A stretch of DNA of 31,380 nucleotides from a virus. The position numbers were made by a program, and so were the translations under genes. This document shows positions 1 to 30,421 of the stretch, one piece after another. The notes beneath the pieces are model-generated. The model saw only the letters and a program-made list of their open reading frames with translations, was not told where the DNA came from and did no database searches. The stretch covers positions 1-31,380 of IMG/VR virus record IMGVR_UViG_3300035201_000142, one strand, 5' to 3'. Numbering within the stretch: the first letter of the stretch is position 1; each line of letters starts with the position of its first letter.

Positions 1-181
1 CTGTTTCCCAACCACATGATGAAAGTTTGATGTCACCGAAGTTTGAAATTGATGCAATTAAGTTACCATGTAGAGTAACAAATTGGTTGCCTTCGTTATC
101 ATTGAAAACGGTTGTATTTCCACTACTCCAGTTAACACGATTACGAAGTGCATTTTGCATTTGAGTTTCAATTTTTCGCAT
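1..181 (-). CDS. Small conserved phage protein, partial (3' end outside window)
   Basis: The reading frame starts with MRKIETQMQNALRNR and stays open to the left edge (about 60 residues visible). It includes NEGNQFVTLHGNLIAS, a short beta-rich segment resembling small proteins I have seen in marine T4-like phages. No function is known to me. It is the first gene after box promoter 1 and the structured leader RNA at 207-341, and its ATG lies about 25 nt past the leader's closing stem. No good Shine-Dalgarno is visible. Confidence 0.7.
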   Translation of the reverse strand, partial: MRKIETQMQNALRNRVNWSSGNTTVFNDNEGNQFVTLHGNLIASISNFGDIKLSSCGWET

Positions 182-206
182 TAATTCAGAAATAAAATGT
201 TTAGTT

Positions 207-341
207 GAGAGGAGAAATGTCAGTGACTATTTCAACTGAACTCCCGTCTACACTTACATCTCATCTATCCTACATTTCTTCAGATAGTGATAGAGAACGG
301 TTTAGGATTATAACGGGTTTTAGGAACCCGTCTCCCCTCAC
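207..341 (-). ncRNA. Structured leader RNA, copy 1 (riboswitch-like)
   Basis: This lies directly downstream of box promoter 1 and upstream of the gene at 1-181. It shares 47 consecutive identical bases (214-260) with the copy at 4541-4587. Read on the minus strand, the fold is: a closing stem (GAGGGGAGA with TCTCCTCTC), a hairpin ACGGGTT/AACCCGT, an arm with outer pairing CCGTT/GACGG and an inner variable stem (CTC/GAG), and a small hairpin TCAGT/ACTGA. The closing stem and inner arm differ from copy 2 by compensatory changes, which supports a conserved RNA structure. No known riboswitch class was recognised. Confidence 0.7.
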
Positions 342-368
342 TATAAGTACAGTTTAGACGAGACAGTT
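340..368 (-). promoter_or_regulatory. Box promoter 1 (20-bp box + -10)
   Basis: The 20-bp box occupies 349-368, with TATAGT on the minus strand at 340-345, 3 nt away. The box overlaps the end of the gene at 354-563: its last codons and TAA stop (..CLV*) are inside the box. It drives leader RNA copy 1. Confidence 0.75.
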
Positions 369-563
369 ACTATTATTAACTGTATTCCATACAATAATAT
401 AACAACTCAACCATTCTTCTTGTTCTGATGTTAATTGAGTAAAACAATCTGCCTCACCATGATTAATACTTTCATAGAGTAAATCATCTGCTGACATATA
501 CTCTAGATTGTGTAATGTGCAATAATCTCTTAACACATTAGATAGAAAATCAAGGTTGTTCAT
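354..563 (-). CDS. Hypothetical protein, 69 aa
   Basis: The protein is acidic and Leu/Tyr-rich (MNNLDFLSNVLRDYC...). Its ATG is preceded by a strong AGGAGG about 8 nt upstream, which fixes the start. It is the last gene of the unit that begins at box promoter 2. Its C-terminal residues CLV and stop codon are written inside box promoter 1, so the 3' end of this gene and the promoter have to evolve together. I do not recognise the function. Confidence 0.75.
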   Translation of the reverse strand: MNNLDFLSNVLRDYCTLHNLEYMSADDLLYESINHGEADCFTQLTSEQEEWLSCYIIVWNTVNNSNCLV

Positions 564-590
564 TGTTAGTTTCCTCCTGGGAATAATTCA

Positions 591-833
591 TCATAATTGT
601 ACATTAGTTAACCTATCATCACTACAAACATTATCAATTAACTCCTCATATAATCCATCATCATTATAACAATCAATTCTCTCTTTTAACTCCTCTGGTG
701 TTAACTTTCCATACTGATATATGAGTTCATCTGTAACCCATTCTACTAAAGTTTTGGTGTCCATGTTATCAACTTGTAACTCAACAAATTGTTCTACAAG
801 TTCACCAAATTGGTCATTAGTTAGATTGTTCAT
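591..833 (-). CDS. Small acidic hypothetical protein, 80 aa
   Basis: I chose the start MNNLTNDQF because its ATG overlaps the TGA of the gene at 830-1114 (ATGA) and GGTGG lies at a suitable distance upstream; an ATG four codons earlier is possible. The sequence is helical and acidic, with LTPEELKERI and GLYEELIDN segments. It resembles small proteins of marine T4-like phages that carry 'TLV..' and 'EEL' helices. Function unknown. Confidence 0.75.
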   Translation of the reverse strand: MNNLTNDQFGELVEQFVELQVDNMDTKTLVEWVTDELIYQYGKLTPEELKERIDCYNDDGLYEELIDNVCSDDRLTNVQL

Positions 834-1114
834 TTTGTCCACCATAAAGATTTAGAAATATCAGTATCACAATGTGTGCAGTTAAGTGATAACCAACCAA
901 AGTGATATACTGTTGTAACATTATCACACATAGGGCAAATAATCTCTCTTCCTTTATACCCTGATCTGGTAAATCTATCTACATGTTTATAACCAGAATA
1001 ATAGAATTTACCCTCACTATCTTTTTGTGCAGGTACTTTTTTATTAGTTAACTCTGGATATTTTATAGGAGTCTTCCTAAGTTGTAGTTTACTATTATAA
1101 CAAATCATATCCAT
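830..1114 (-). CDS. Small zinc-ribbon protein, 94 aa
   Basis: The C-terminal half has two CxxC knuckles, CPMC and CTHC (about residues 60-82), around the segment VTTVYHFGWLSLN. This is the typical spacing of a single zinc ribbon. A GGAGGT sequence 5 nt before the ATG sets the start. The gene at 2383-2574 is a paralogue with the same CPxC...VYHFxWxxLxCxxC core. Nucleic-acid or protein binding is plausible for such a ribbon, but no specific role can be assigned. Confidence 0.8.
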   Translation of the reverse strand: MDMICYNSKLQLRKTPIKYPELTNKKVPAQKDSEGKFYYSGYKHVDRFTRSGYKGREIICPMCDNVTTVYHFGWLSLNCTHCDTDISKSLWWTK

Positions 1115-1116
1115 AA

Positions 1117-1353
1117 TTAACCTCCAAAGGTGAATTGTGGACTTTGTAATAATATATCTCTTACATGTTCACGATCTAAAGTATCACCATCACCCCATGA
1201 ATATTCGGGCATAGATGGATAACAACACATCTGTAAATATAACCAACTTGCTTCTAATATGTCTTTCTTTGTTAAACCTTTAATTGGATAAAGTTCAGAT
1301 TGTGGGTTATAAAATGCCCACACATAATCAATGAATTCTTGTAAATTAGACAT
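1117..1353 (-). CDS. Conserved hypothetical protein, 78 aa
   Basis: This is an aromatic-rich protein (WAFYNPQSELYPIKGLTKKD, then YSWGDGDTLDREHVRDILL). The ATG overlaps the TAA of the membrane-protein gene upstream (TAATG), and AGGAGG lies inside that gene's end. It is similar in style to small conserved proteins of marine T4-like phages. Function not recognised. Confidence 0.75.
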   Translation of the reverse strand: MSNLQEFIDYVWAFYNPQSELYPIKGLTKKDILEASWLYLQMCCYPSMPEYSWGDGDTLDREHVRDILLQSPQFTFGG

Positions 1354-1574
1354 TAGATTAGTCCTCCTGATAGTTTAGTAAGTGAAATAATGATTAAGAA
1401 AGATAACATTATCACTACATCATGTGCCTTAGTTCTTATAAAGAATGGTATACTAATTACGTTAGCAATTAAGTGCATTAGTGCTCCAACTGTTGCTGAT
1501 ACATGTAACACAATAAAGTAAGCAGTTACTATCAAGAATGACCCGATAATTCTGCCTGTTGTTAATAACTTCAT
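1353..1574 (-). CDS. Small integral membrane protein, 73 aa
   Basis: Two to three hydrophobic segments are visible (IIGSFLIVTAYFIVLHV, VGALMHLIANVISIPFF and VVIMLSFLIIISL), so this is a polytopic inner-membrane protein. I take the ATG at 1572-1574 (MKLLTTGR), which overlaps the TGA of the upstream gene; a GTG two codons earlier is the alternative. The role is unknown. Confidence 0.75.
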   Translation of the reverse strand: MKLLTTGRIIGSFLIVTAYFIVLHVSATVGALMHLIANVISIPFFIRTKAHDVVIMLSFLIIISLTKLSGGLI

Positions 1575-1717
1575 TGGCACATATCCTCGAATAGTTTCAT
1601 TACCAAATTCTCAATTTCCCACTCTGCATATAAAGCAAAAGTATCATTATCTTTTAATTCGGTAACAACTTCCTCGTAAAGATTCTCAAGGATGATTTCA
1701 TTTTGTAGACAAGACAT
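1571..1717 (-). CDS. Small acidic protein, 48 aa
   Basis: The sequence MSCLQNEIILENLYEEVVTELKD... forms one or two amphipathic acidic helices and ends in DMCQ. The frame is complete and is ATGA-coupled to the membrane-protein gene. It is the first gene after the terminator at 1745-1771, so it depends on read-through or on a promoter I could not identify. Resembles small proteins of marine T4-like phages; function unknown. Confidence 0.7.
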   Translation of the reverse strand: MSCLQNEIILENLYEEVVTELKDNDTFALYAEWEIENLVMKLFEDMCQ

Positions 1718-1744
1718 TTAATCAAACTCCATAACGTAAATAAT

Positions 1745-1771
1745 AAAAAAGAAGGGTGATTATCCCTTCTT
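1745..1771 (-). terminator. Rho-independent terminator
   Basis: On the minus strand the stem AAGAAGGG/CCCTTCTT with a 7-nt loop is followed by a T run. The TAA stop codon of the gene at 1760-1948 lies in the loop, so the last lysine codons form the stem. Confidence 0.8.
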
Positions 1772-1948
1772 TGGATTAAAGAGATTATACATTTTATCAC
1801 CGATTGAACTCATTAATTCTGCCTCTTTGTCACCATAATCTTGATAATCAGCAAGGGCAGAATCAATTGCATTCCATTCATCTTCGGTGAAAAATCCCTT
1901 GATAGTTTGTAACTGATCGTAGGAATAATCTCTGACCGAGGTTTGCAT
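1760..1948 (-). CDS. Hypothetical protein, 62 aa
   Basis: An acidic helical protein (MQTSVRDYSYDQLQTIKGFF, then WNAIDSALADYQDYGDKEAEL). It is the first gene after box promoter 2, with a short leader of about 25 nt, and ends inside the terminator at 1745-1771. Most transcripts from this promoter may therefore carry only this gene. Function unknown. Confidence 0.75.
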   Translation of the reverse strand: MQTSVRDYSYDQLQTIKGFFTEDEWNAIDSALADYQDYGDKEAELMSSIGDKMYNLFNPKKG

Positions 1949-1970
1949 TGTTTCTAAAATTCGTGATTAC

Positions 1971-1999
1971 ACTATAAGGACAGTTTAGACGAGACAGTT
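1971..1999 (-). promoter_or_regulatory. Box promoter 2 (20-bp box + -10)
   Basis: The box is at 1980-1999, with TATAGT (minus strand) at 1971-1976, 3 nt away. It follows the stop of the gene at 2004-2153 by 4 nt and drives the 62-aa gene at 1760-1948. Confidence 0.75.
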
Positions 2000-2003
2000 T
2001 GTG

Positions 2004-2153
2004 TTAGTCATCCTTTAAATTAGGATTAACACCAATAACTCTTGCATGTGGATTTCTATTTTTTGCAGTATCTATGGCATGTTGTCTATTAACTGCCTGT
2101 ACTTGTTCGATGAAAGTTTTACCTCCAACGTACAAATTAACATCCCATTTCAT
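2004..2153 (-). CDS. Small conserved phage protein, 49 aa
   Basis: The frame begins MKWDVNLYVGGKTFIEQVQA and ends ARVIGVNPNLKDD. The pattern of a beta hairpin, then an AIDTAKNRNP helix and a VIGVNP tail, resembles a small protein family common in marine T4-like phages. The ATG overlaps the previous stop (TAATG). Function unknown. Confidence 0.8.
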   Translation of the reverse strand: MKWDVNLYVGGKTFIEQVQAVNRQHAIDTAKNRNPHARVIGVNPNLKDD

Positions 2154-2386
2154 TAGTTTTCCTCCTCGAATTGTGCAAAGTAGTTATCAGTAACAGATTG
2201 TAATTCTGCAAATACTCTATCAACATCTCTCTTGAAACTATCATCATTATTATAATCATCACTACCCTCAATATATCCTTCTAAACAGTAAAGAATTGTA
2301 CTTAATTCACTTCCAATTAAGTTTACTTTATGGGTAGTATTTAAATACCGTTGATAACTCTGATCGTGGGTTGATTGAATAGTCAT
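2153..2386 (-). CDS. Hypothetical protein, 77 aa
   Basis: I start at MTIQSTHDQSYQRY because its ATG overlaps the TGA of the zinc-ribbon gene and GGGAG precedes it; the five upstream codons begin with TTG and are less likely. The body is helical and acidic (GSELSTILYCLEGYIEG, DVDRVFAELQSVTDNYF). It may be structural or a small regulator; nothing diagnostic is seen. Confidence 0.75.
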   Translation of the reverse strand: MTIQSTHDQSYQRYLNTTHKVNLIGSELSTILYCLEGYIEGSDDYNNDDSFKRDVDRVFAELQSVTDNYFAQFEEEN

Positions 2387-2574
2387 TGTTGTAACTCCCA
2401 AGAGTATTTGTCTATCATTTGGTTACAATTAGTGCAACCTAATCCTGACCAACTAAAATGATAAACAGTAACAGAATGTTTGCAGGATGGGCAAACAATT
2501 TGCTTGCCCAATTTACCTGCTCTTGTGTACTTATTTACCCTAACAATGTCAGGAATAAATAGAGTCTTACTCAC
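2383..2574 (-). CDS. Small zinc-ribbon protein, GTG start, 63 aa
   Basis: The core CPSCKHSVTVYHFSWSGLGC..C carries two CxxC pairs and matches the protein at 830-1114. I choose a GTG start (MSKTLFIPDIVRVNKYTRAG) because GGAGG lies 6 nt upstream and because the longer frame upstream only shadows the gene at 2567-2674. It is shorter than its paralogue at the N-terminus. Confidence 0.8.
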   Translation of the reverse strand: MSKTLFIPDIVRVNKYTRAGKLGKQIVCPSCKHSVTVYHFSWSGLGCTNCNQMIDKYSWELQQ

Positions 2575-2674
2575 TATCTTCCTCCAGGAAACTATCAATA
2601 ACTGCAAGCAAATCATTGCCTGTTTCTGCATCTTCAAGTTGTGCAACTAGAAAACCGTAAGGATTGAATGCCAT
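2567..2674 (-). CDS. Very small protein, 35 aa
   Basis: A complete frame, MAFNPYGFLVAQLEDAETGN... ending SFLEEDSE. It is predicted to be mainly one acidic amphipathic helix. Its 3' end contains the Shine-Dalgarno of the following zinc-ribbon gene and overlaps its GTG start, which supports translational coupling. Function unknown. Confidence 0.65.
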   Translation of the reverse strand: MAFNPYGFLVAQLEDAETGNDLLAVIDSFLEEDSE

Positions 2675-2736
2675 TGGAAATAATAAAGAATAGGTTTACA
2701 ATTAAGCAGTTTAAAGTCATACTTAAGGACTGAAGA

Positions 2737-3138
2737 TTATCTTAGATAGAGATAACCACCTGCCCAATCTGTAAAGTTTGGGTTATGAAGTTTTGCTCTA
2801 TCTGATATTAACCGTAGGTCATATCTAACAATTTTTGCTGGTGATTTCCAAGATGCAGGTTTATAAACTTCACCTGTATTTCTATCAATGAAGGCATGAA
2901 CTCCACCATCACGATATTCATTTCTATCCTGGAAAGTATCATAATCTTGTTGAATAACTTTAATATATTTGCGACCAAATTCCATTCTAAATTTAAGTGG
3001 ATGATCGGTATTTGGGTATCTTAACTTATAGTTTTCCTCAAGACTTCTGCATAATTGCCACACCCACTTTTCAATCTTTTGATCTAAAGTGAGTTGTTCT
3101 TCTGGAAATACTGCGATTGTTGGAATACTTGCAACCAT
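2737..3138 (-). CDS. Conserved phage protein of unknown function, 133 aa
   Basis: The central and C-terminal part (GGVHAFIDRNTGEVYKPASW, then KSPAKIVRYDLRL) is a pattern I recognise from small uncharacterised proteins in many phages; the biochemical role is not known to me. AGGAG lies 7 nt before the ATG. It is the first gene after box promoter 3 and the hairpin leader at 3168-3228. Complete, with no sign of damage. Confidence 0.8.
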   Translation of the reverse strand: MVASIPTIAVFPEEQLTLDQKIEKWVWQLCRSLEENYKLRYPNTDHPLKFRMEFGRKYIKVIQQDYDTFQDRNEYRDGGVHAFIDRNTGEVYKPASWKSPAKIVRYDLRLISDRAKLHNPNFTDWAGGYLYLR

Positions 3139-3167
3139 AAATTCTCCTGATAAATGTGAATTAGTGG

Positions 3168-3228
3168 GAGAGAAATCAACACCTGCTAGACTTAGTTTTC
3201 TGCTAGACTTAATGTGTTGGTTTCTCTC
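3168..3228 (-). promoter_or_regulatory. Long hairpin in the leader of the gene at 2737-3138
   Basis: Arms GAGAGAAA (3168-3175)/TTTCTCTC (3221-3228) and CAACAC (3177-3182)/GTGTTG (3214-3219) form a 14-bp stem with one mismatch. The enclosed loop holds two copies of CTGCTAGACTTA (3183-3194 and 3200-3211) as a direct repeat. It sits right after the -10 of box promoter 3, so it would fold at the 5' end of the mRNA. Confidence 0.65.
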
Positions 3229-3257
3229 ATTGTAAGGACAGTTTAGACGAGACAGTT
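3229..3257 (-). promoter_or_regulatory. Box promoter 3 (20-bp box + -10)
   Basis: The box is at 3238-3257, with TACAAT (minus strand) at 3229-3234, 3 nt away. It begins 1 nt after the stop of the gene at 3259-4161. Confidence 0.75.
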
Positions 3258-3258
3258 A

Positions 3259-4161
3259 CTAACTCCTAACACGGTTAAAATTAGCAGCACTAAAATAATT
3301 ACGATCAATTATCTTATAGACACCAAATTCATTAGTCAAAACATAACCTTCATGGTCACATTCTTCATCATCAATATAACATTCAATGTCATCTTGTCTC
3401 TCGATATAATCAAACATATCCAGTTTAATTGTATAGACTAACTTCCACAAACGTAAGACATTTACATCTACATTATTATCACTTGCAATTGCCTCTTGTG
3501 TGATATCATCTATCTCTAATCCTTGCTTAAAACATGTATTTAATTGCTTCTTAATCCTTGTAACTTGTTTACTACTAGGGAAATCACATAAAGTTGCAAT
3601 TTGTCTAGCAAATTTGCATCTCTCAGGTATATCCCCAAGATTATTATCAATTGTTACAGATGGTTGAACATACAATACATTATCATCACTTTTTAACTTA
3701 TATTGTAATGGGTAAGGTACTGCATCTCTTAAATCTCCATCACATTCATAATAAGTATGAGGTGCAATTATGATTTCTTGGTTGTTGATTTCTTCGGGGA
3801 AATCGTAGGTGATTGTATTAGGGCAGAAAGTAAAATTGCCACCAAAACCGATAAAATCACCTTGGTAGATACCAGTTGTAGGATGAATACAATCAAGGCA
3901 CTTATGGAGAATATCTGCCACTTCTCCTTGATGATTTTCGTCAATTTGTCTATGGTCATGATTAATCTTAATTAACTTTTTGTTGAAGACACTTTTAGTG
4001 CCTACAAAGAATTTATTGTTTGAAGGATTTGTACCCCAAACTATTGCTGGAGATCCATCAATCTTGGTTGAAATATGTGAATCAGCAGTGAACCAATTTA
4101 ATACACTAAGTTCACCACTTAAAACCATATCTTCTGGGTGTTCAATGTGTAATAGTGGCAT
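3259..4161 (-). CDS. KxDG nucleotidyltransferase/ligase-like protein, 300 aa
   Basis: The protein has motifs in the order of the ATP-grasp-unrelated polynucleotide ligase/nucleotidyltransferase superfamily: TKIDGS (K33, D35, G36; motif I), YQGDFIGF (around residue 100; motif III-like), HEGYVL (E271; motif IV) and VYKIIDR (K283; motif V). In that family the motif I lysine is adenylated. I start at MPLLHIEHPE because the longer frame reads through the terminator stem at 4181-4204. Proteins with the STKIDGSPAIVWG core occur in T4-like cyanophages, to my knowledge without an assigned function. RNA or DNA ligase activity is an inference; a degenerate, non-catalytic relative is the main alternative. 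Confidence 0.6.
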   Translation of the reverse strand: MPLLHIEHPEDMVLSGELSVLNWFTADSHISTKIDGSPAIVWGTNPSNNKFFVGTKSVFNKKLIKINHDHRQIDENHQGEVADILHKCLDCIHPTTGIYQGDFIGFGGNFTFCPNTITYDFPEEINNQEIIIAPHTYYECDGDLRDAVPYPLQYKLKSDDNVLYVQPSVTIDNNLGDIPERCKFARQIATLCDFPSSKQVTRIKKQLNTCFKQGLEIDDITQEAIASDNNVDVNVLRLWKLVYTIKLDMFDYIERQDDIECYIDDEECDHEGYVLTNEFGVYKIIDRNYFSAANFNRVRS

Positions 4162-4180
4162 AATAATAATACAATAGTAT

Positions 4181-4204
4181 AAAAAAGGGAGCATAATTGC
4201 TCCC
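4181..4204 (-). terminator. Rho-independent terminator
   Basis: On the minus strand GGGAGCA-atta-TGCTCCC forms a 7-bp stem with a 4-nt loop, followed by six T. It lies just past the stop of the gene at 4216-4509 and separates that gene from the ligase-like gene. Confidence 0.9.
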
Positions 4205-4215
4205 TGTAACAAAAG

Positions 4216-4509
4216 TTATTCAGCAATCAATTCAGACACATAGTTGTATGCTTTCTTGCCAAATGGAAGGAGATAATCATAACCTTTTTGCACATCTTTC
4301 ACAAGCATGTTAACTTCATAGTTGTGAATTCTAACTCTTGCAAGTACATCTTCACGATAATCTGCAAGGGTTAGTTTAGGTGCTGGAGGTGCAATCTCTT
4401 GAACTTCCTTAACAACAACTGTTTTGGGAGTTGGTGTTACTTTGGCAGCAGACTTACGACTTCTACGTGTTCTTGAACTGGTTGAAGTGACTGAAGTCTT
4501 TGCTGGCAT
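4216..4509 (-). CDS. Basic-tailed hypothetical protein, 97 aa
   Basis: The N-terminal ~30 residues are rich in Ser, Thr, Arg and Lys (SSRTRRSRKSAAK), followed by a Pro/Val linker and a helical C-terminus (LTLADYREDVLARVRIHNYE). The basic tail could bind nucleic acid. It is transcribed from box promoter 4 through leader RNA copy 2 and closed by a strong terminator, so it is effectively monocistronic. Function unknown. Confidence 0.75.
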   Translation of the reverse strand: MPAKTSVTSTSSRTRRSRKSAAKVTPTPKTVVVKEVQEIAPPAPKLTLADYREDVLARVRIHNYEVNMLVKDVQKGYDYLLPFGKKAYNYVSELIAE

Positions 4510-4532
4510 AGTTTGACCTATAAAGTGAAAAT

Positions 4533-4670
4533 GTAAGGGTGAAATGTCAGTGACTATTTCAACTGAACTCCCGTCTACACTTACATCCCATCCTCCTTAC
4601 TATTATTCGGGTGGTCTTGTAGGGAACGGTTTAGGATCATAACGGGTCGTGAAACCCGTCACCCTTACAC
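4533..4670 (-). ncRNA. Structured leader RNA, copy 2 (riboswitch-like)
   Basis: Same architecture as the copy at 207-341. Closing stem GTAAGGGTGA/TCACCCTTAC, hairpin ACGGGT-ttcacg-ACCCGT, arm CCGTT/GACGG with inner CCC/GGG, hairpin TCAGT/ACTGA. The 47-nt core at 4541-4587 is identical to copy 1, while the stems differ by paired changes. Part of the 5' closing strand lies at or before the predicted transcription start, so the real closing stem may be shorter. Confidence 0.7.
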
Positions 4671-4697
4671 TATAAGTACAGTTTAGACGAGACAGTT
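4669..4697 (-). promoter_or_regulatory. Box promoter 4 (20-bp box + -10)
   Basis: The box is at 4678-4697, with TATAGT (minus strand) at 4669-4674, 3 nt away. It lies 4 nt after the stop of the gene at 4702-4911 and drives leader RNA copy 2. Confidence 0.75.
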
Positions 4698-4701
4698 AGC
4701 A

Positions 4702-16680: not shown

Positions 16681-17712
16681 TTAACCTAGTCCTCCATGAT
16701 CATTAGACATTCCTGCAGGTGGGTGTAAGGCAACAGTCAAATCACCCCAATCAGTTGCATTACCTGTGGCTGCAATATTTACAAATGATATCGTATTAGT
16801 TGTACTTGGTGCATTTCCTCCAGCAAATACTACTCTTGTTCTTGATGCTGTTCCTCCTCCACGATAAGTAGCAGTTTGTAGATCACCAAAATCTGTTGCA
16901 TTTCCTAATTCTGCAATAGTTATATAATCAATAGTAGCAAGTGCTGGATTATATCCACCACCCCATACTGCTCTTACAGCATTTGATCCACCAAATAATC
17001 CCATCCTTCCAGCAGTTAAATTACCAAAATCTGCAAAGTTACCCGTTGTTGCAATGGTTGTATAATCAATAGACTCTTTAACACTAGCAGGAGTACCAGA
17101 AGTACTTGGTTCTTGTGATCCACCAGCACGAATAGCACGAGTTGGTGATGCAGCACCAGCAGCATCCTGAATTAAGACAGTTAAGTCACCATAATCATTT
17201 GCATTACCTGTTGATGCGATAGTTACATAATCAACGGTATTAAGTCCAGCAGCTGGATCACTTCTTCCACCATATACAAGACCTCTTGTTTGATTTGAAG
17301 CACCACCTTGACGATTTCCATATGCTCCAGTCAAATCACCAAAATCTACTGCATTACCTAATTGTGCAATAGTTATATAATCAATTGTATTAAGAGCTGG
17401 AGAACCAGAACCTGCAATTAATCCTCTAGTTCGTGATGAAAGACCAGCAGAATAAGATCTTGCTACTGTTAAATCGCCAAAATCATATGCATATCCCGCT
17501 GTATTAATTTGTATATAATTTATAACATTCACATCTGATGCTGGACCAGGATCTCCACCAGCAAACACTCCACGAGCACCACCAGTCTCTTCACCTGCTG
17601 AAGTGCCATCTAAAACCCACCATGCCTCACCATTGTAAACCTCCATTTTAGTAGAGTCGGTGTTAAATCTTATTGAACCTGCTGTAGGTGTACTAAATGA
17701 TGAATATTCCAT
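16681..17712 (-). CDS. Six-repeat kelch-like protein, type A N-terminus, 343 aa
   Basis: The N-terminal module IRFNTDSTKMEVYNGEAWW is the short beta module found at the start of many phage tail-fibre-type proteins. It is followed by six repeats of the form TRGxxxGG...TIDYxTIxxxGNAxDFGDLT, each about 50 residues, and the closing SNDHGGLG. Six repeats predict a six-bladed propeller. There is no signal peptide, so a virion or cytoplasmic location fits better than export. It is the last gene of the leftward array. The fold is inferred; surface binding is the likely role. Confidence 0.7.
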   Translation of the reverse strand: MEYSSFSTPTAGSIRFNTDSTKMEVYNGEAWWVLDGTSAGEETGGARGVFAGGDPGPASDVNVINYIQINTAGYAYDFGDLTVARSYSAGLSSRTRGLIAGSGSPALNTIDYITIAQLGNAVDFGDLTGAYGNRQGGASNQTRGLVYGGRSDPAAGLNTVDYVTIASTGNANDYGDLTVLIQDAAGAASPTRAIRAGGSQEPSTSGTPASVKESIDYTTIATTGNFADFGNLTAGRMGLFGGSNAVRAVWGGGYNPALATIDYITIAELGNATDFGDLQTATYRGGGTASRTRVVFAGGNAPSTTNTISFVNIAATGNATDWGDLTVALHPPAGMSNDHGGLG

Positions 17713-17713
17713 A

Positions 17714-18748
17714 TTATTCTCCTATGCCTCCATGACAGTCAGATAAACCTTCATTCCATCCAGCAGCTGCAGTTGTATCACCAAAGTCTGTGGAATTTCC
17801 TGCTGATGCAATAGTTACATATTCAATTACATTATCCATAGCACCAGGAGATTGATTCCTTCCACCTGCCCATATTCCACGAACAGTAGATGACATAGCA
17901 GATAATGCCCTTGTTGCCCTCGTCATATCACCAAAGTCTGTTGCATTTCCTGTGGTTGCAATAGTTATATAATCAATAGTATTTGTATTGTTACTACCAT
18001 CATAACCACTTCCACATACTCCTCTCGTTGTACTGGACATTATTCCTGAAGGTAAATATGAATTTGCTCTCGTTAAATCACCAAAATCCTGTGCATCTCC
18101 TTTTGTTTGTATAGTTATATATTGACAAACATTAGTTTCACCAGGTGCTCTACCACCCATCATTACCCCTCTTGTTGGAGAACATGCACTTCCACCCAAC
18201 CACTGTCCTTTCTCTAAATTACCAAAATCTGAGGAATCTCCTGTTGTTGCAGTTGTAATATATTGAATAGTAGTAACAATTGCATCTGATGGTTTTGTAA
18301 GACCACCCATAAACACACTTCTCGTAGAATCAGCAGCAGTAGAAACATATCTCACATTCTCAGTCAAATCACCAAAATAATTTGCACTACCAGTTGATGA
18401 TATAGTTACGTAATCAATACCAGTTGTATTTCCTGGACTAACATCTCCACCTGCAAATACCCCTCTGGTAGAATTAGAACCAGTACCTGCTCCACCTTTA
18501 CCTAGTTCACGTAAATCACCAAAATCTGCTCCATTTCCTGTTGATGCAATAGTTATGTAATTTAATGTATTAACATATGGACTTCCTCCACCAATATTAT
18601 ATACTGCTCTTCCTCTTCCACCTCTATGTGATGTAGGTCCATTGGGAATCCTCATCGCACCAGTAGAACTAACCGTAGTAATCCCTGCCAACACAGTTCC
18701 TTGCTGACCTTGCTTACCTGTAATGTGGTTGATGTTAAAGTCTGCCAT
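17714..18748 (-). CDS. Six-repeat kelch-like protein, type B N-terminus, 344 aa
   Basis: The type B module starts MADFNINHITGKQGQQGTVL, then AGITTVSSTGAMRIPNGPT and RGGRGR, a segment that contains no 'NTD..EYY.G.W' element. Six repeats follow (headings SPY, DVSP, LTKP, RAPG, YDGS, RNQS) with the closing SDCHGGIGE. The stop lies one base before the next ATG. AATAAATA lies just 5 nt before the ATG. Same predicted propeller role as its neighbours. Confidence 0.7.
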   Translation of the reverse strand: MADFNINHITGKQGQQGTVLAGITTVSSTGAMRIPNGPTSHRGGRGRAVYNIGGGSPYVNTLNYITIASTGNGADFGDLRELGKGGAGTGSNSTRGVFAGGDVSPGNTTGIDYVTISSTGSANYFGDLTENVRYVSTAADSTRSVFMGGLTKPSDAIVTTIQYITTATTGDSSDFGNLEKGQWLGGSACSPTRGVMMGGRAPGETNVCQYITIQTKGDAQDFGDLTRANSYLPSGIMSSTTRGVCGSGYDGSNNTNTIDYITIATTGNATDFGDMTRATRALSAMSSTVRGIWAGGRNQSPGAMDNVIEYVTIASAGNSTDFGDTTAAAGWNEGLSDCHGGIGE

Positions 18749-18756
18749 ACTGGTAT

Positions 18757-19785
18757 TTATTCTAAACCTCCATGTGCATCAGAACAACCAGCACCTTGAC
18801 CAGCTTTCGTTCCAACATAATCACCCCAGTCTACTGCATCTCCTGTTGATGCAATGGTTATTTTATCAACTGAATTAACAAAACTTTGACTATCTGGAGT
18901 TGATCCACCAGCAAATATACCACGAGTACTACCACTCATAGCACCACTTCTTTGATTATCAGCAGTTAGATCACCAAAATCTGCTGCATTTCCTGTTGAT
19001 GCAATAGTTACATAATCCATCACATTTGTATTTGCAGGAGATGGAGATTTTGCTCCACCAGCTCTCACACCTCTTGTTGAATTTGAAACACCACTACACA
19101 TAAAAACATTTTGAGTAAGATCACCAAAATCATTTGCATTTCCTGTTGTTGCAGTAGTTATATAATCTATAAAATTCAAATAAGCAGTTGGTGATGGAAC
19201 ATCTTGACCACCAGCAAATATACCACGAGTTGGTGAGTTCATGGATGCTTGTTTTTTAGTTCCAACTGTAGAATCACCAAAATCTGTAGCATCTCCTGTT
19301 GTTGCAATAGTAATATATTGAATAACATTTTGAGATTGAGCTGGATTCTCACAAGGTCCAAACACACCACGAGTACCATTAGATACTCCACTAGATTCAA
19401 ATCTACCATGATCTAAATTACCAAAATCAATTGCATTTCCTTGCGTTGCAATCGTTATATAATCGATTCTATCCTGATATCCTGGTGCATATCCTCCAGC
19501 AAATACTCCTCTAGTCCAACTTGAACAAGCACCAGTTCCTCTTCTTGATAGTGATAAATCACCAAAATCACCAGAAACTCCATCTGACGCAATTTCACAA
19601 AAATACATTTGACCAATTACACTAGGTGTAAAACCACCTCCAACTACTCCACGACCTCTACCTCTCTGTCCAGTGTCTCCTACTGGTACTACAAACTGAC
19701 CAGATGATACAGTAGATACACCAGCAATCACTGGTCCAGTACCACCACTTATGTTAGTTATGTTGTTAATTTTTAGATCTGACAT
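18757..19785 (-). CDS. Six-repeat kelch-like protein, type B N-terminus, 342 aa
   Basis: Starts MSDLKINNITNISGGTGPVI, then AGVSTVSSGQFVVPVGDTG and RGRGRG. Six repeats follow; the third has the GG heading replaced by GPCEN. It ends SDAHGGLE. It is the second of two adjacent type B genes and is close to the one at 17714 in layout, consistent with a tandem duplication followed by divergence. Confidence 0.7.
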   Translation of the reverse strand: MSDLKINNITNISGGTGPVIAGVSTVSSGQFVVPVGDTGQRGRGRGVVGGGFTPSVIGQMYFCEIASDGVSGDFGDLSLSRRGTGACSSWTRGVFAGGYAPGYQDRIDYITIATQGNAIDFGNLDHGRFESSGVSNGTRGVFGPCENPAQSQNVIQYITIATTGDATDFGDSTVGTKKQASMNSPTRGIFAGGQDVPSPTAYLNFIDYITTATTGNANDFGDLTQNVFMCSGVSNSTRGVRAGGAKSPSPANTNVMDYVTIASTGNAADFGDLTADNQRSGAMSGSTRGIFAGGSTPDSQSFVNSVDKITIASTGDAVDWGDYVGTKAGQGAGCSDAHGGLE

Positions 19786-20816
19786 TATCCTAAACCTCCG
19801 TGACCATTAGATAAACCTTGACAGTTATAAACACTTTGCGTCAAATCACCAGCATCTACTGAATTTCCTTCCGACATTATTTGCACATACTCTATACCAT
19901 TTTCCATTGCATTAGGACTAGGTGTTTGTTTACCACCTGCAATAGCACAACGAGTTGAAGATGCTGCTACTGCTGGTATATATTTTTTAACAGTTGTATC
20001 ACCAAAATCAACTGCATCTCCACCAGTTGCAATGGTTGAATATTTTATATCTGTCTTACCATATGCTCCTGAATATATTACTCTAATTGCATTAGAATCA
20101 GACCCTACAGTAGCATTACCCATATTCATATCTCCCCAAGAAGTTGTATTACCTTTTGTTGCAATAGTAATTGTTGAAATGTTTGCATTGCTACTACCAC
20201 AAGCAAATACACCACGAGTAGGAGAAGCAGCACCATTACTACCAGGTTGACTGGATGCTCCTGCTGCTATATCACCAAAATCTACTGCATTTGCTGCTGA
20301 TGCAATAGTTACGTAATCAATGATATTATAATTTGTCCATCCACCACCTGGATTATTAGTACCACCAGCAAATACACCACGAGTTTGATTAGACATTCCT
20401 GAAAAATCCATTCGTGCTTGAGTCAAATCATTAAAATCTATTCCATTAGATGGTGATGCAAATTCTATACGCTCAATTTGAGTAGTAGAACCACTATGAG
20501 TTGGTGTTTTATATCCACCACCATATAATCCACGAGTTCTTGATGAAACAACACCAGCACCAAATACATTGTTAGCTAAATCACCAAAATCTGCTGCATT
20601 TCCTGTTGTTGCAAGATTCCAATAATCAATTACATTAATCCAGTTAGGTGAAACGTTACCTCCCATTCTAACTGCACGAGTTCCACCAGTATGTACATAT
20701 GGAGAATCGGAAATTACATTTACCCACCGATTACCATCATAATATTCTAACTTACTGGTATCTGTATTAAATCTAAATGCTCCTACTGGAGTTGGTTGTA
20801 GTGGTGATTGTTCCAT
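19785..20816 (-). CDS. Six-repeat kelch-like protein, type A N-terminus, 343 aa
   Basis: I start at MEQSPLQPTPVGAFRFNTD, because its ATG overlaps the upstream stop (TAATG) and because the other type A proteins begin the same way (MEYS..., MEYP...). Six repeats follow, of which the fourth and fifth are shortened (FACGSSNANISTITIATKG, IRVIYSGAYGKTDIKY). It ends SNGHGGLG. The weak blades suggest relaxed or special selection on part of the propeller. Confidence 0.7.
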   Translation of the reverse strand: MEQSPLQPTPVGAFRFNTDTSKLEYYDGNRWVNVISDSPYVHTGGTRAVRMGGNVSPNWINVIDYWNLATTGNAADFGDLANNVFGAGVVSSRTRGLYGGGYKTPTHSGSTTQIERIEFASPSNGIDFNDLTQARMDFSGMSNQTRGVFAGGTNNPGGGWTNYNIIDYVTIASAANAVDFGDIAAGASSQPGSNGAASPTRGVFACGSSNANISTITIATKGNTTSWGDMNMGNATVGSDSNAIRVIYSGAYGKTDIKYSTIATGGDAVDFGDTTVKKYIPAVAASSTRCAIAGGKQTPSPNAMENGIEYVQIMSEGNSVDAGDLTQSVYNCQGLSNGHGGLG

Positions 20817-21877
20817 TATGCTAAACCTCCGTGACAATCAGAGAATCCAGAACGATATCCTCCAGCCCAAGTTAAATCACCAAAGTCTGTTGTATTCCCT
20901 GTGGTTGCAATGGTTACATACTGTATAACATTAATTGCTGCTGGATATTGTCCACCACCAAATACACCACGGGTGTGAGATGAACATGCACCGAAATGAT
21001 TATTAGCAGCGGCCAAATTACCAAAGTCAGTTGCATTTCCTAATGTTGCAATAGTTACATATTCTATTGTATCAACATTTGTACTTGGTGCAACATTACC
21101 ACCAGCAGTTATTCCACGAGTTGGACTAGCACATCCTGCAGCCCCACGAATTCCTGCACTTAAATCACCAAAATCTTTTGAATTTCCTCTTGTCTGGATA
21201 GTTACATATTGAATAGTATTTCCTTCATGATCAGTTTTACTACCACCAGTCCATATACCACGAGTACTATTACTAAATGCAGAAGGAAGATAAGAGTCAT
21301 ATGAAGATACTGATGATGTCTGCCCATTAAGAACATTAAAATGACCAAACTCTGATGCATTTCCTGTTGATGCAATAGTTACATACTCAATGTATGCTGT
21401 TGAATCAGGATGAGTATAACCACCTCCAGATATTCCACGAGTGCTATCAGAAAAACCTGCATTTCCATATACAGCAGTTCTTAAATCACCAAAGTCAGAT
21501 ACACCACCCTGAGAAGATATCATTACATATTCTATACCAGACATTCTTGTATTACCTGGATATGAATAACCTCCTGCCCATATTCCACGAGTCTCAGATG
21601 CAAATGAAGCACAACCCCCTCCTCTATTATAGGCATCACCACCAAACTCTGTTGCATTCCCTGTCGTTGCGATAGTTATATAATTAATTGTATTGGTAGG
21701 AGTGGAAGGACTAACACCACCAGAACCAAATACTCCTCTTCCTCTTCCACCACGATAAGCTATTGGTCCACTAGGTATTACCATCCCAGATGTTCCACTA
21801 AATGTAGAGATACCAGCAATCTGAGTTCCTGCACTACTATCTCTATTGGTTATCTTATCTATTCTAAATTCTGACAT
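20816..21877 (-). CDS. Six-repeat kelch-like protein, type B N-terminus, 353 aa
   Basis: Starts MSEFRIDKITNRDSSAGTQI, then AGISTFSGTSGMVIPSGP and RGGRGRG. Six repeats; between the third and fourth there is an extra Ser/Tyr-rich loop (NGQTSSVSSYDSYLPS) that would protrude from the propeller edge. It ends SDCHGGLA. The loop makes this the longest type B member. Confidence 0.7.
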   Translation of the reverse strand: MSEFRIDKITNRDSSAGTQIAGISTFSGTSGMVIPSGPIAYRGGRGRGVFGSGGVSPSTPTNTINYITIATTGNATEFGGDAYNRGGGCASFASETRGIWAGGYSYPGNTRMSGIEYVMISSQGGVSDFGDLRTAVYGNAGFSDSTRGISGGGYTHPDSTAYIEYVTIASTGNASEFGHFNVLNGQTSSVSSYDSYLPSAFSNSTRGIWTGGSKTDHEGNTIQYVTIQTRGNSKDFGDLSAGIRGAAGCASPTRGITAGGNVAPSTNVDTIEYVTIATLGNATDFGNLAAANNHFGACSSHTRGVFGGGQYPAAINVIQYVTIATTGNTTDFGDLTWAGGYRSGFSDCHGGLA

Positions 21878-22878
21878 TATAAACCTCCATGACCATTAGA
21901 GAAACCATAAGCTTCATTACGATTACCAGTTAAATCACCAAAATCAGTAGAATTACCTGTAGTCATTATCTGTACATAGTCAAGTTGATTAAATGGAGAT
22001 GGTTGCCATCCACCACCAAATATGGCACGGGTAGAACTTGCACAAGCAGTTCCACATCCAAGAATACCTGATTGCCTGTCTCCAAAATCTGTTGAATTTC
22101 CAAGGGTTGCTATAGTTACATATGAAAGTACATTATTATATCCTCCAGGTGCATATCCCGTAGCAACAACAGCTCTAACTGCATTAGCACCACTTCTACC
22201 AGAATAACCACCAGTATACATATCACCAAAATCAGCACTATTACCTTGTGATGCAATAGTTACGTACTGTATTACATTCGTTCCAGGTTGTCCCATAAAC
22301 CACATACCACGAGTTGTATTAGAAGTTGCTTGTGCTCTTCCAACACCTGTATATAAATCCCCAAAATCTGCTGCATTTCCTGCTGATGCAATAGTTACAT
22401 AATCTATTGTATTATTAGCAGATGCACCACCACCAAATAATCCACGAGTAGGTGATGAACATCCTCCCTGACCATACCTAGTTCCACTCAAATTACCAAA
22501 ATCTGCTGCATTACCAGTAGAAGACATTGTTATGTAATTAATAGTGTCAACCGTTGGGCCCTCTCCTCCTGAAATTAATCCACGAGTTCTACTTGAACAT
22601 GCACTAGGAGCAGAATGTGCTGTTTGCATATCACCAAAATCTGCTGCATTACCTGTTGTAGATATATCAAAATAATCAATTGCTGCAGTATAAGGAGTTC
22701 CTCCAGGATGAGCAGTACTACCTCCAGCAGAAAATCCACGAGTTCCACCAGTCTGCAATTCAGGAGAAGTTGATAATACACCAGTCCACTGATTACCATC
22801 ATATATTTCCATTTGAGAACTATCCGTATTAAAACGGAAAGCACCTGCTGTTGGATTTTTTAGTGAAGGGTATTCCAT
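21877..22878 (-). CDS. Six-repeat kelch-like protein, type A N-terminus, 333 aa
   Basis: Starts MEYPSLKNPTAGAFRFNTD, then QMEIYDGNQWTGVL. Six repeats; the fourth carries WFMGQPG and the fifth VATGYAPGG instead of the common GG heading. It ends SNGHGGL. The shortest complete member. A TCTAAATA sequence (late-promoter-like) lies 4 nt before the ATG, across the previous stop. Confidence 0.7.
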   Translation of the reverse strand: MEYPSLKNPTAGAFRFNTDSSQMEIYDGNQWTGVLSTSPELQTGGTRGFSAGGSTAHPGGTPYTAAIDYFDISTTGNAADFGDMQTAHSAPSACSSRTRGLISGGEGPTVDTINYITMSSTGNAADFGNLSGTRYGQGGCSSPTRGLFGGGASANNTIDYVTIASAGNAADFGDLYTGVGRAQATSNTTRGMWFMGQPGTNVIQYVTIASQGNSADFGDMYTGGYSGRSGANAVRAVVATGYAPGGYNNVLSYVTIATLGNSTDFGDRQSGILGCGTACASSTRAIFGGGWQPSPFNQLDYVQIMTTGNSTDFGDLTGNRNEAYGFSNGHGGL

Positions 22879-22886
22879 GCTAGTAT

Positions 22887-24026
22887 TTAGAGACCCCCAT
22901 GTGCATTAGAACAAGCAGTTTTATAGGTAGCAGTTGTCGTTTGATCTCCAAAATCAACTGCATTTCCTGTCGAAAGAATATTCACATAGGAGATACTATT
23001 ACCACCACTACCTCTTACTATTATTCCACGAGTTCCACCAGCAGTAGCACAACCATAACCTCCAGTCCAAAGCATATCACCAAAATCTGTTGCATTTCCT
23101 AATGATGCAATTGTTACATACTCTATATTATTGATACCAGATGGACTTCTACTTCCACATATTAATCCACGAGTTGAATTAGAACATCCACTATCATTAG
23201 GAACACCACCAACTGCAAGTAGATCACCAAAATCTGCTGCATTTCCTAATGTTTGAGTGGTTACATAATCAATAATATTTGTACCAGCACCACCACCAGG
23301 TCCAGTATAACCACCACAAAATACTGACCTAGTACTGCTATTGAAAGAAGAAAAATCAGTTCTCGCTTCAGTTAAATCACCAAAATCAACCGAATCACCT
23401 GTTGTTGCAATAGTATTATACTGGATTCTATTAGTATCAGTATAAGGAGCAGGAAGTTTTAAACCACCAGCAACGAGGCCTCTTGTTTGATCACCAGTTC
23501 CAGTTGGAGCATATTGATGACTATCATTTAGTAAATCACCAAAATCTTGTGCATTACCTGTTGATGAAATGGTTACAAAATCTATTTCTCTTCTAACAAC
23601 AGTAGTATATCCACCAGCACATACTCCTCTTGTTCTACTTGAGAAAGATGTTACAGATGACCTTGCTAATGTTAAATCACCAAAATCTGCTGTATTTCCT
23701 AATGTTGATATAGTAAAATACTCTATTGTATTAATATTACCACCACTAGTACCACCCATATACAATCCACGAGCACCACCATCAAGATCTGGTGAAGTCA
23801 TTTCAATCTGTGTCCAAGTCCTTGTTCCATCTCCTCTATAATATTCTAAACTTGCAGTATCAGTATTAAATCTTAAATCACCAAGTTGTGGATTTTCTGG
23901 TCTTTGTGCCGTATTTCCTACTGGTGGAACAAAGTATGATGTAGCAGAGAATGTTGATACACCTACTATATCTGGTGATCTATCTTCATTCTCATTCGAT
24001 AAGTTTCTTACATTAATTTGTGACAT
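22887..24026 (-). CDS. Six-repeat kelch-like protein, combined AB N-terminus, 379 aa
   Basis: The N-terminus joins a type B start (MSQINVRNLSNENEDRSPDI, VGVSTFSATSYFVPPVG) to a type A module (RPENPQLGDLRFNTDTASLE, YYRGDGTRTW). Six repeats follow and it ends SNAHGGL. The combined arrangement may be the ancestral full-length form, with the A-only and B-only genes derived from it by loss, or a fusion of them. Confidence 0.7.
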   Translation of the reverse strand: MSQINVRNLSNENEDRSPDIVGVSTFSATSYFVPPVGNTAQRPENPQLGDLRFNTDTASLEYYRGDGTRTWTQIEMTSPDLDGGARGLYMGGTSGGNINTIEYFTISTLGNTADFGDLTLARSSVTSFSSRTRGVCAGGYTTVVRREIDFVTISSTGNAQDFGDLLNDSHQYAPTGTGDQTRGLVAGGLKLPAPYTDTNRIQYNTIATTGDSVDFGDLTEARTDFSSFNSSTRSVFCGGYTGPGGGAGTNIIDYVTTQTLGNAADFGDLLAVGGVPNDSGCSNSTRGLICGSRSPSGINNIEYVTIASLGNATDFGDMLWTGGYGCATAGGTRGIIVRGSGGNSISYVNILSTGNAVDFGDQTTTATYKTACSNAHGGL

Positions 24027-25144
24027 TACAATAATCCTCCATTCATATTAGAACATGCAGTATTATGATTAGCAGTTTGAACTAAATCACCAAAATCTAG
24101 TGCATTACCTAATGTCGCAATAGTTACATAGTCAATAGTATTTACAAAGGTGGGAGAAATATTTCCACCACCAAATACACCACGAGTTGCATTTGCACAC
24201 CCAGCTAAATCAGTTCTTGCTGAAGTTAAATCACCAAAGTCTACTGAATTGCCTAATGTCTGAATAGTTACATATTGTACTACATTCTGAGCACTTGGGC
24301 TTTCACCACCCGCAAATAATCCTCTTGTAGAACTAGAACACCTTCCTGTTCTACGAGTAGGATCTGCTAGAAGATTACCAAAATCAATACCATTACCTGT
24401 TGACATAATAGTTACATATTCTATGGTATCAGTATCAGGTGATGATCCTCCAGCAAATAATGCTCTTGTAGAGTCTCCTATACAACCCATACCATTGGTA
24501 GAATTACCTGTACTAGAATCACCAAAATCGGTTCCATTTCCTGGTGATGCAATGGTTATATACTCTATATTATTCAGAAGTGATGGAGAACCATGACCAG
24601 TAGCAAAGAGTCCCCTTACCTGATTACAGCCAGATTGTACCCAATGTCTATCATTAATTAAATCACCAAAATCTGCAAAATTTCCAAGTGTAGCAAAAGT
24701 ACCATAATCAATAACATTAGTATTAGCACTTCCCGTATAACCACCACCACGCACAGCACGAGTCGTTGATCCTAATGCTCCACCAACTGCAGAATTCACT
24801 GTGATATCACCAAAATCTTTTGCATTTCCTGTGGTTGAAATCTCTACATAATCAATATGATTAACACCAGGGTTACCACCAATAAACAATCCACGACCAC
24901 CAATAGGTGCTGATTGTACTCTATTAATAGTTTCCCAACCTAATACATTTCCTTTAAAAAGTTCTAAACTTCCAATATCTGTATTAAATCGTAATGTTCC
25001 TACTTCTGGATTCTCTGGTCTCTCTGCTGTAGTACCAGAAGGTGGAACCATAAAATATGGAGAAGTTAATTCAGTTGTACCAACTAAATCTGGACCTTCA
25101 TTCCCATGTTCTTTTCTTAAATTCGAAGCATTAAGTTCTGACAT
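24026..25144 (-). CDS. Six-repeat kelch-like protein, combined AB N-terminus, 372 aa
   Basis: Starts MSELNASNLRKEHGNEGPDL, with FMVPPSGTTAERPENPEVG and LRFNTDIGSLELFKGN as in its two AB neighbours. Six repeats follow. The closing motif is SNMNGGLL, with Asn instead of the usual His. The ATG overlaps the previous stop (1 base shared). Confidence 0.7.
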   Translation of the reverse strand: MSELNASNLRKEHGNEGPDLVGTTELTSPYFMVPPSGTTAERPENPEVGTLRFNTDIGSLELFKGNVLGWETINRVQSAPIGGRGLFIGGNPGVNHIDYVEISTTGNAKDFGDITVNSAVGGALGSTTRAVRGGGYTGSANTNVIDYGTFATLGNFADFGDLINDRHWVQSGCNQVRGLFATGHGSPSLLNNIEYITIASPGNGTDFGDSSTGNSTNGMGCIGDSTRALFAGGSSPDTDTIEYVTIMSTGNGIDFGNLLADPTRRTGRCSSSTRGLFAGGESPSAQNVVQYVTIQTLGNSVDFGDLTSARTDLAGCANATRGVFGGGNISPTFVNTIDYVTIATLGNALDFGDLVQTANHNTACSNMNGGLL

Positions 25145-26301
25145 TATCCTGATAGACCTCCATGAGAATTAGATCCTCCAGCCACTTGTTGATCAGCCCT
25201 TGTTAAATCACCAAAATCTGCTGCATTACCTAATGTTGTCATTGTTACATATTGAATAGTATTAACATCACCGACACCAGATACACCACCCATATAAAAA
25301 ATACCTCTTGTAGATGATGCAACATTTCCATTATTACCAAAAGCATTTCCTGAAGTTGCGTTAAGTAAATCTCCAAAATCAATTCCATTACCAGTTGATT
25401 TGATAGTTATATATTCAATACTATTGGTTTTTGCTGGAGAACTATAACCACCAGCAAAAAGTCCTCTTGTACTACTACTGCAACCAGATGCTGGAGCACG
25501 AACAACTGACGTATCACCAAAATCTACCGCATTTCCTAGTGTTTGAATATTAATATAATCTATTGTGTTAAGTATAGCAGGATTATCACGACCACCACCA
25601 AATATTCCACGGGTTGCATCAGAAATACCACAAGGAATATCCCTTTCTGCTGTTAAATCACCATAATCAACAGTATTTCCTAATGTTGAAATTTGGAAAT
25701 ATTGAATTACATTTAATTGTGCTAAGTAATTGGGATGATTTCCGCCACCAATAATACCACGGACTTTATCACTCAATCCAGCAGAAGAAGCAGCATTTTG
25801 AACTAAATCACCGAAATCTGTTGCATTTCCTGTTGATTTAATCTCAACATAATCCATCACATTTACTGTGGGATTATTTCCACCACCCCAAACAAATCGA
25901 GTAAAATTACAAACACCAACTTGACTATCTTGTTTTGCACCATTACAATCACCAAAATCTAATGCATTTCCTAATGTTGTTATCTCTATATAATCAATGA
26001 TGTTAACATCAGCGTTACCAGTTGCATAACCACCAGCAAATAATCCACGCGGAGCTACAGGTGATACTTCAGTTGATTCTATATCTACCCAACCTCCTAC
26101 TGAATTTCCTTTAAAATATTCTAAATGCCCACTATCTGTATTAAATCTTATTGAACCTTTCTCTGGATTTTCTGGTCTCTCTACTGTACTTCCTACTGGT
26201 GGAATAAAAAAGTAAGGACTAGAAAATGTAGTGATTCCTGAAATGGTTGGACCACCCGTATTACTTTCATTTGATAAATTGGTGATCCTTGCTTCTGACA
26301 T
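25144..26301 (-). CDS. Six-repeat kelch-like protein, combined AB N-terminus, 385 aa
   Basis: Starts MSEARITNLSNESNTGGPTI, with FFIPPVGSTVERPENPEKG and IRFNTDSGHLEYFKGN. Six repeats, the sixth headed by YMGGVSGVGD; it ends SNSHGGLSG. The longest member. It follows directly after the sulfotransferase gene with no gap. Confidence 0.7.
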   Translation of the reverse strand: MSEARITNLSNESNTGGPTISGITTFSSPYFFIPPVGSTVERPENPEKGSIRFNTDSGHLEYFKGNSVGGWVDIESTEVSPVAPRGLFAGGYATGNADVNIIDYIEITTLGNALDFGDCNGAKQDSQVGVCNFTRFVWGGGNNPTVNVMDYVEIKSTGNATDFGDLVQNAASSAGLSDKVRGIIGGGNHPNYLAQLNVIQYFQISTLGNTVDYGDLTAERDIPCGISDATRGIFGGGRDNPAILNTIDYINIQTLGNAVDFGDTSVVRAPASGCSSSTRGLFAGGYSSPAKTNSIEYITIKSTGNGIDFGDLLNATSGNAFGNNGNVASSTRGIFYMGGVSGVGDVNTIQYVTMTTLGNAADFGDLTRADQQVAGGSNSHGGLSG

Positions 26302-29398: not shown

Positions 29399-30421
29399 CT
29401 ATGTTCCTCCACCAGCATTAGATAATCCTGAAGATCTTCCTCTTGCTACCGTTAAATCACCCCATTCATATGCATTTGATTTTGTAGAAATTTCTATTTT
29501 CTGTACCCAAGTCAACCAAGCAGGACCAGCAGGTCCTATCCTTGCACCTTGGAATAGTCCACGAGTTGATGATTGAGCACCAGAAGGAATGTGGAGAGTA
29601 TTCAGATCACCAAAATCTTGCGAATTTCCTGTTGTTGCAATGGTTATAAAGTCCATTACATTATCCTTCCAACCAAAAGGACTACTACCATCATTACCAT
29701 TACTAAATACTGCTCTAGTACCACTAGAAACTCCACCATCTATCATCCATTTTCCTCTAACTAAATCACCAAAATCTGTTGCATTACCTGTAGTCATAAT
29801 GGTTATATAATCAATCTGATTTTTTTGATCAACAAAACCACCAGCAAAAACACCACGAGTTTGTGAACATACACCAGTTGGATATCCCCTTCCAACAGTT
29901 AAATCACCAAAATCTGCTGCATTTCCTGTTGTTGTTGTGGTTATATATTGAATGTGATTATTCTGATAATATGTTCCACCAGCAACTGCTCTAACATTAT
30001 TTGATACCGCACCAACTCCATATTTACCAGTGAACATATCACCAAAATCTGCTGCATTTCCTGTTGTTGCAATGGTTACATAATCAATTGGAGCAGGGTC
30101 TGATAGTTGTGGACCTGCTGATATATACCCACCAAAAACAAATCCTCTAGTTCTAGTACCAGTTCCACCAGTATATCCACCCGCCCAATTCATATCACCA
30201 AAATCAGTATAGTTTCCACCCGTTGAAATCTGCACATAATCTATTGTATTAACGGTTCCAGGACTTGCATATCCACCCAAACAAAGTCCTCTAGCACCAA
30301 TAGGTACAGACTCACTAACTGCTACCTGCATCCACTGAGTACCATTAAAGCACTCCATCTTATTGGAGTCTGTATTATATCTGATTGCTCCGGTTGGAAC
30401 TTCTACTGGTATCATACTCAT
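29399..30421 (-). CDS. Six-repeat kelch-like protein, type A N-terminus, 340 aa
   Basis: Starts MSMIPVEVPTGAIRYNTD, then KMECFNGTQWMQV. Six repeats follow; the last is longer and Trp/Pro-rich (GARIGPAGPAWLTWVQKIEI). The closing motif SNAGGGT lacks the usual His. The ATG overlaps the TGA of the gene upstream (ATGA). It is separated from the nine-gene array by four other genes. Confidence 0.7.
   Translation of the reverse strand: MSMIPVEVPTGAIRYNTDSNKMECFNGTQWMQVAVSESVPIGARGLCLGGYASPGTVNTIDYVQISTGGNYTDFGDMNWAGGYTGGTGTRTRGFVFGGYISAGPQLSDPAPIDYVTIATTGNAADFGDMFTGKYGVGAVSNNVRAVAGGTYYQNNHIQYITTTTTGNAADFGDLTVGRGYPTGVCSQTRGVFAGGFVDQKNQIDYITIMTTGNATDFGDLVRGKWMIDGGVSSGTRAVFSNGNDGSSPFGWKDNVMDFITIATTGNSQDFGDLNTLHIPSGAQSSTRGLFQGARIGPAGPAWLTWVQKIEISTKSNAYEWGDLTVARGRSSGLSNAGGGT

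Follow-up and report, generated by a model that had tools for sequence, protein, structure and literature searches.

The window, that is, the whole 31,380-base virus record analyzed here, carries on its minus strand two copies (A and B; Table 1) of an RNA that belongs to a genuine structured class, previously undescribed and absent from Rfam 15. We judge the chances to be about even that A and B are copies of one discrete, mobile non-coding RNA gene of ~135 nt from T4-like cyanophages, likely acting as a stable small RNA. Because it also occurs as a unit among the tRNA genes of related phages, it resembles a mobile, free-standing RNA more than a conventional gene switch.

Table 1. The two copies of the RNA in the window, their promoter boxes and the genes that follow them; copy coordinates are trimmed to the closing stem.
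Feature	Position	Strand	Remarks
Copy A	206..340	-, read 340->206	135 nt; P1 closing stem, P2 hairpin, P3/P3b/P3c arm, P4 hairpin
Promoter box of copy A	338..372	-	AACTGTCTCGTCTAAACTGT-ACT-TATAGT; one of eight box copies in the window (repeat D16)
Kyano_Gp96 (PF23790), gene after copy A	2..181	-	Pfam E = 2.5e-16; cut by the window edge
Copy B	4533..4668	-, read 4668->4533	136 nt
Promoter box of copy B	4667..4698	-	Sequence as in the box of copy A; repeat D16; -10 TATAGT abuts P1
97-aa ORF without family, gene after copy B	4216..4509	-	From the ORF listing

The genes of the first 14 kb of the window lie nearly all on the minus strand, and both elements are therefore best read as minus-strand RNAs. 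The original prediction had placed two structured leaders here, sharing an identical core of 47 nt, differing by paired changes in their stems and preceding unrelated genes. Indeed, the two elements were found at these places, on the strand of all nearby genes; their longest identical run is exactly 47 nt (GATGTAAGTGTAGACGGGAGTTCAGTTGAAATAGTCACTGACATTTC), and the paired changes are present both in the closing stem (GAGGGGAGA/TCTCCTCTC versus GTAAGGGTGA/TCACCCTTAC) and in the inner arm (CTC/GAG versus CCC/GGG). The copies are 82% identical in a comparison within the record (E = 4e-31), and the covariance model scored 150 bits for copy A and 165 bits for copy B, both of which were among the sequences used to build it. 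The genes that follow are unrelated to each other, and no match to the 97-aa ORF was found in PHROG or Pfam. Their start codons are located ~24 nt (Kyano_Gp96) and ~23 nt (97-aa ORF) downstream of P1, and a terminator scan placed an intrinsic terminator at 4205-4186, directly after the 97-aa ORF. No tRNAs were found near either copy in the window.

We scanned IMG/VR with several patterns taken from different conserved pieces of the RNA, and obtained six further loci representing four further distinct sequences (L005, L006, L007 and the mutually identical L008, L009 and L010); differently placed patterns returned the same six loci again. Together with A and B, six distinct copies are thus available, all from uncultured contigs, and the recovery of four more distinct copies speaks against a chance resemblance. 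A 21-nt exact pattern matched zero other viral contigs, and two pattern matches (L011 and L012) were set aside as chance since they lie inside phage coding genes and do not match the model. Full-length searches of 20 named phage records with the six-copy covariance model (R1) gave no convincing match; the records comprised 14 complete genomes of isolate cyanophages, one metagenome cyanophage genome, four single-cell viruses and T4, and the larger of these searches applied stricter filters, at the risk of missing weak matches. A single weak R1 match in P-SSM2 (E = 0.25) falls in sequence that reads as coding and was taken as chance. A blastn search of INPHARED gave no relevant match; in the GTDB species genomes, one pattern gave no matches and another gave three non-cyanobacterial matches, none of which fits the model; and the plasmids searched yielded nothing beyond short, weak partial matches to Lactococcus. 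As the RNA was not found in the named phages, INPHARED or GTDB, all copies known so far come from uncultured phages.

The original prediction could assign the elements to no known RNA class, and an Rfam 15 search of the window gave no match at E values up to 1. When L005 and L006 were searched at E values up to 5, tRNA, manA and sub-threshold matches appeared elsewhere in the loci and none on the RNA, and at E values up to 10 no riboswitch match was obtained on the RNA of L005. No such RNA was found in the parts of the literature covered, which included the list of non-coding RNAs of S-CREM1 (PMC9964418).

The structure was derived by hand from an alignment of the six distinct copies (A3). In this fold, the two ends of the RNA pair in P1, hairpins form at P2 and P4, and conserved single-stranded stretches lie within a long P3 arm. 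P1 has 10 bp (GAGAGGTGA, GTAAGGGTGA or GAGGGGAGA with their complements), P2 6 bp, P3 5 bp (CCGTT/RACGG), P3b 3 bp, P3c 5 bp (CTATC/GATAG, CTTTC/GAAAG or CCACC/GGAGG) and P4 7 bp with a bulged U, TCAGT/ACTGA changing to TTGGT/ACCAA. Across the alignment, 97.7% of the pair cells were paired, compared with 35-49% when the partner was slid by 1-3 columns, and double-sided changes were observed at 12 of the 36 pairs, compared with 0-1 in the slid controls, which bears out the prediction of a conserved core held by covarying stems. RNAalifold, supplied with no structure, arrived at essentially this set of helices, in which 11 pairs covary; the covarying pairs require 22-24 state changes on the three best parsimony trees, and each sequence showed a folding z of -2.0 to -2.8 against dinucleotide shuffles. 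Moreover, unpaired columns are conserved as much as paired ones (42/65 and 43/72 invariant, respectively), the conserved unpaired stretches being TTATRATCCTAAA between P2 and P3, YGAAKAAWWGTAR as the loop of P3c, ATGTAAGTGTA on the 3' side of P3, where L007 has T in place of the first A, and CATTT before P1. Judged from the alignment, a 6-bp pseudoknot (AAGUGU/ACAUUU), both strands of which are invariant in all copies, is possible. The minimum-energy folds of single sequences surpass the covariation-supported fold by 6.2-8.3 kcal/mol, which makes tertiary or alternative contacts in the core likely. G-U pairs occur in the proposed (minus) strand; along with the stops in each of its three frames, they agree with an RNA transcribed in the minus direction. 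A protein-coding reading was rejected, as such stops occur in all three RNA-strand frames of 6/6 copies.

At all six loci outside the window, the RNA sits in tRNA arrays of T4-like cyanophages. It lies between tRNA-Asn and tRNA-Thr, with a few nucleotides on each side, in L005 and L008-L010; the order in L005 is promoter, manA RNA, tRNA-Asn, the RNA (541-676) and tRNA-Thr, and L008-L010 have the same order plus tRNA-Tyr. In L006 and L007, the RNA heads the array, 4-8 nt ahead of the first tRNA (followed by tRNA-Thr, -Asn and -Asp in L006 and by tRNA-Gly, -Thr and -Asn in L007), and P1 starts 6-8 nt after a sigma70-type promoter (TTGACA-N18-TACAAT and TTGACA-N17-TAAAGT). Counting A and B, four of the six distinct copies are at or beside a transcription start. 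Every tRNA array that bears the RNA (L005, L006, L007 and L008-L010) also contains tRNA-Asn(GTT) and a tRNA-Thr. At L006 4412-4443, the end of a dehydratase-like ORF runs into the RNA, with its stop just past P2, as though the 3' end of the gene had been the landing site of the cassette.

A close relative of the window phage, L003, has the syntenic gene pair at site B with a variant of the promoter box, the -10 element and the start codon intact, and lacks the RNA; the box variant and -10 are followed by GTACCACGTTAGGTCATTCT-ATG. On this comparison, the RNA at site B would have been either gained in the window phage or lost in the relative. The nearest relatives of A and B are found in other phages: copy B is closest to L005, a tRNA-array copy with which it shares 97.6% identity over 126 nt, and to L008, and copy A is closest to L006 (18/134 differences). 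The description of the two elements as twins thus holds for their 82% identity and 47-nt core and fails for their descent, B differing from L005 at 11/136 positions and from A at 27/134. A simple duplication was rejected, since each copy is closer to copies in other phages, and the RNA at site A was probably acquired separately, to judge from these distances. The empty site in L003 and the nearest kin of A and B elsewhere together indicate that the RNA is a portable unit.

As shown by its placement, the RNA either heads a transcript, with a promoter of its own or one that it borrows, or forms part of a tRNA transcript. For the tRNA arrays, we infer that tRNA-processing enzymes would free the RNA, with P1 at both ends; in the window, where it would form the 5' part of two mRNAs, it may be cut free in the short A/T-rich linker. 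As a mobile RNA gene, it would move between phages as an exact cassette and would most likely work as a stable small RNA, its invariant loops targeting a protein or RNA of the phage or its host, and any mRNA joined to it would be protected by its 5' stem as well. Counting against an RNA gene are the presence of two copies in one genome, each heading an mRNA, as expected of a cis element, the small number of distinct sequences, only six, all on uncultured contigs, and the better energy of the single-sequence folds noted above. A further point against it is that P1 abuts the -10 element in A and B, where transcription from the normal spacing would begin ~6 nt into P1 and shorten the stem. Yet compensatory changes preserve the outer pairs of P1, a sign that this part of the stem is transcribed.

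A possible, though somewhat unlikely, alternative is a cis-acting 5' leader, whose 5'-terminal stem and compact fold would block 5'-end-dependent decay by RNase E or tune translation, and would do the same for a tRNA precursor. The position at or near the transcription start in 4/6 distinct copies fits such a role, as does the spacing of 23-24 nt from the end of P1 to each of the two start codons in the window, where two other promoters of the same class also have hairpins soon after the -10. In addition, PMC9692554 describes a cyanophage transcription factor that raises host RNase E in infection. However, the 42 invariant unpaired positions would be needless in a plain protective hairpin, and a location between two tRNA genes (L005 and L008) is unexpected. 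The term leader in the original prediction suits the two window copies and the two that start tRNA operons; L005 and L008-L010 are internal between tRNA genes.

We consider it improbable that the RNA is a metabolite riboswitch or a protein-controlled regulatory leader, as the original prediction had suggested, with A and B forming a two-gene regulon. Its highly conserved unpaired core with covarying stems is aptamer-like, two copies stand ahead of unrelated genes in one genome, and the manA motif occupies comparable places. However, in the stretch from P1 to the start codons or tRNAs we saw neither a terminator nor a sequestered Shine-Dalgarno sequence, the downstream genes share no metabolic theme or pathway, all other loci are tRNA arrays, and the Rfam searches described above returned no riboswitch on the RNA; the riboswitch suggestion is therefore not supported. 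RNA-based transcription antitermination elements, of which put and EAR are types, act on the polymerase that has just made them, and the position of four copies at the very start of transcripts would suit one; a role of this kind is nevertheless very improbable, since an intrinsic terminator directly follows the gene after copy B, and is found also in L003, which has no RNA there, and since in L005 and L008 a second structured RNA and a tRNA precede the RNA. A self-cleaving ribozyme (no Rfam match), a group I or II intron core (no match) and a likeness of CCGTTC...GACGGGAG to glnA/Glutamine-II (no Rfam support) were rejected.

Among known systems, the closest by setting are the manA motif and T4 RNAs C and D, neither of which is homologous by the tests run. 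The manA motif (RF01745), classed as cis-regulatory in Rfam, is a riboswitch candidate (PMC2864571). Like the new RNA, it is present in cyanophages and marine metagenomes, and here it starts right after a promoter, before tRNA genes (L005, L008) or a transaldolase-like gene (L006). However, it differs in sequence and architecture; the manA model matches L005 at 247-460 but not the RNA at 541-676, at E values up to 10, and in L005 and L008 the two co-occur as separate units in one tRNA operon. The manA RNAs were located at L005 247-460, L008 64-265 and L006 2595-2810, each right after a promoter. That manA leads tRNA operons as well as a transaldolase-like gene weakens the view of this motif as purely a metabolic mRNA leader. 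The tRNA cluster of T4 is annotated as encoding two stable RNAs, RNA C and RNA D (species 1 and 2, rnaC/rnaD), with lengths of 139 and 119 nt, respectively; this setting in a T4-like phage is shared by the six loci outside the window and not by A and B. The end of T4 RNA C forms a T arm like that of a tRNA (GGGTTCGAATCCC), which the new RNA lacks, and model R1 gave no match in T4.

The wcaG, PhotoRC-II and glnA/Glutamine-II motifs, which PMC2864571 and PMC9964418 present as structured RNA leaders of T4-like cyanophages, gave no Rfam match to the new RNA. The Glutamine-II match in L009 is ~500 nt away from it. GOLLD RNA, an ornate RNA of ~800 nt, is often encoded near tRNA genes, also in phages; it shares this setting with the new RNA but differs in length, and had no Rfam match in the window.

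The family adds a covariation-supported RNA that is not in Rfam 15 to marine T4-like cyanophages, in which one unit occurs both at mRNA starts and in tRNA arrays, with a filled and an empty site open to comparison. We also put forward, tentatively and as a proposal that may well not hold, that it represents a new class of phage small RNA, an exact RNA cassette that would insert alternately between tRNA genes and at mRNA starts and, in infected cells, would influence the RNA metabolism or translation of the host in trans. The unexplained T4 RNAs C and D and the orphan manA motif are brought into the same testable frame, namely, whether such RNAs are leaders or RNA genes that borrow promoters.

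The promoter boxes of A and B belong to a set of eight in the window, all on the minus strand, at 360, 1991, 3249, 4689, 7126, 7951, 9712 and 11296. They follow the pattern AACTGT-N7-AAACTGT-N3-TATAAT-like, of which L003 has the variant AACTGGTACGTCTAAACTGT, and the box looks like a phage-specific middle promoter. At 3240-3170 on the minus strand, a box of this class is followed at once by a hairpin leader of ~66 nt (GAGAGAAA...TTTCTCTC), with AAGTCTAGCAG occurring twice; this type of hairpin is absent at the same gene in L003. At 11275-11190, on the same strand, a box precedes a leader with three predicted hairpins that had no match in Rfam or INPHARED. Elsewhere in the window, 16681-26301 and 29399-31380 encode ten or so paralogous repeat proteins with FGDLT/GG repeats of ~48 residues, which are probably fibre or adhesin genes.
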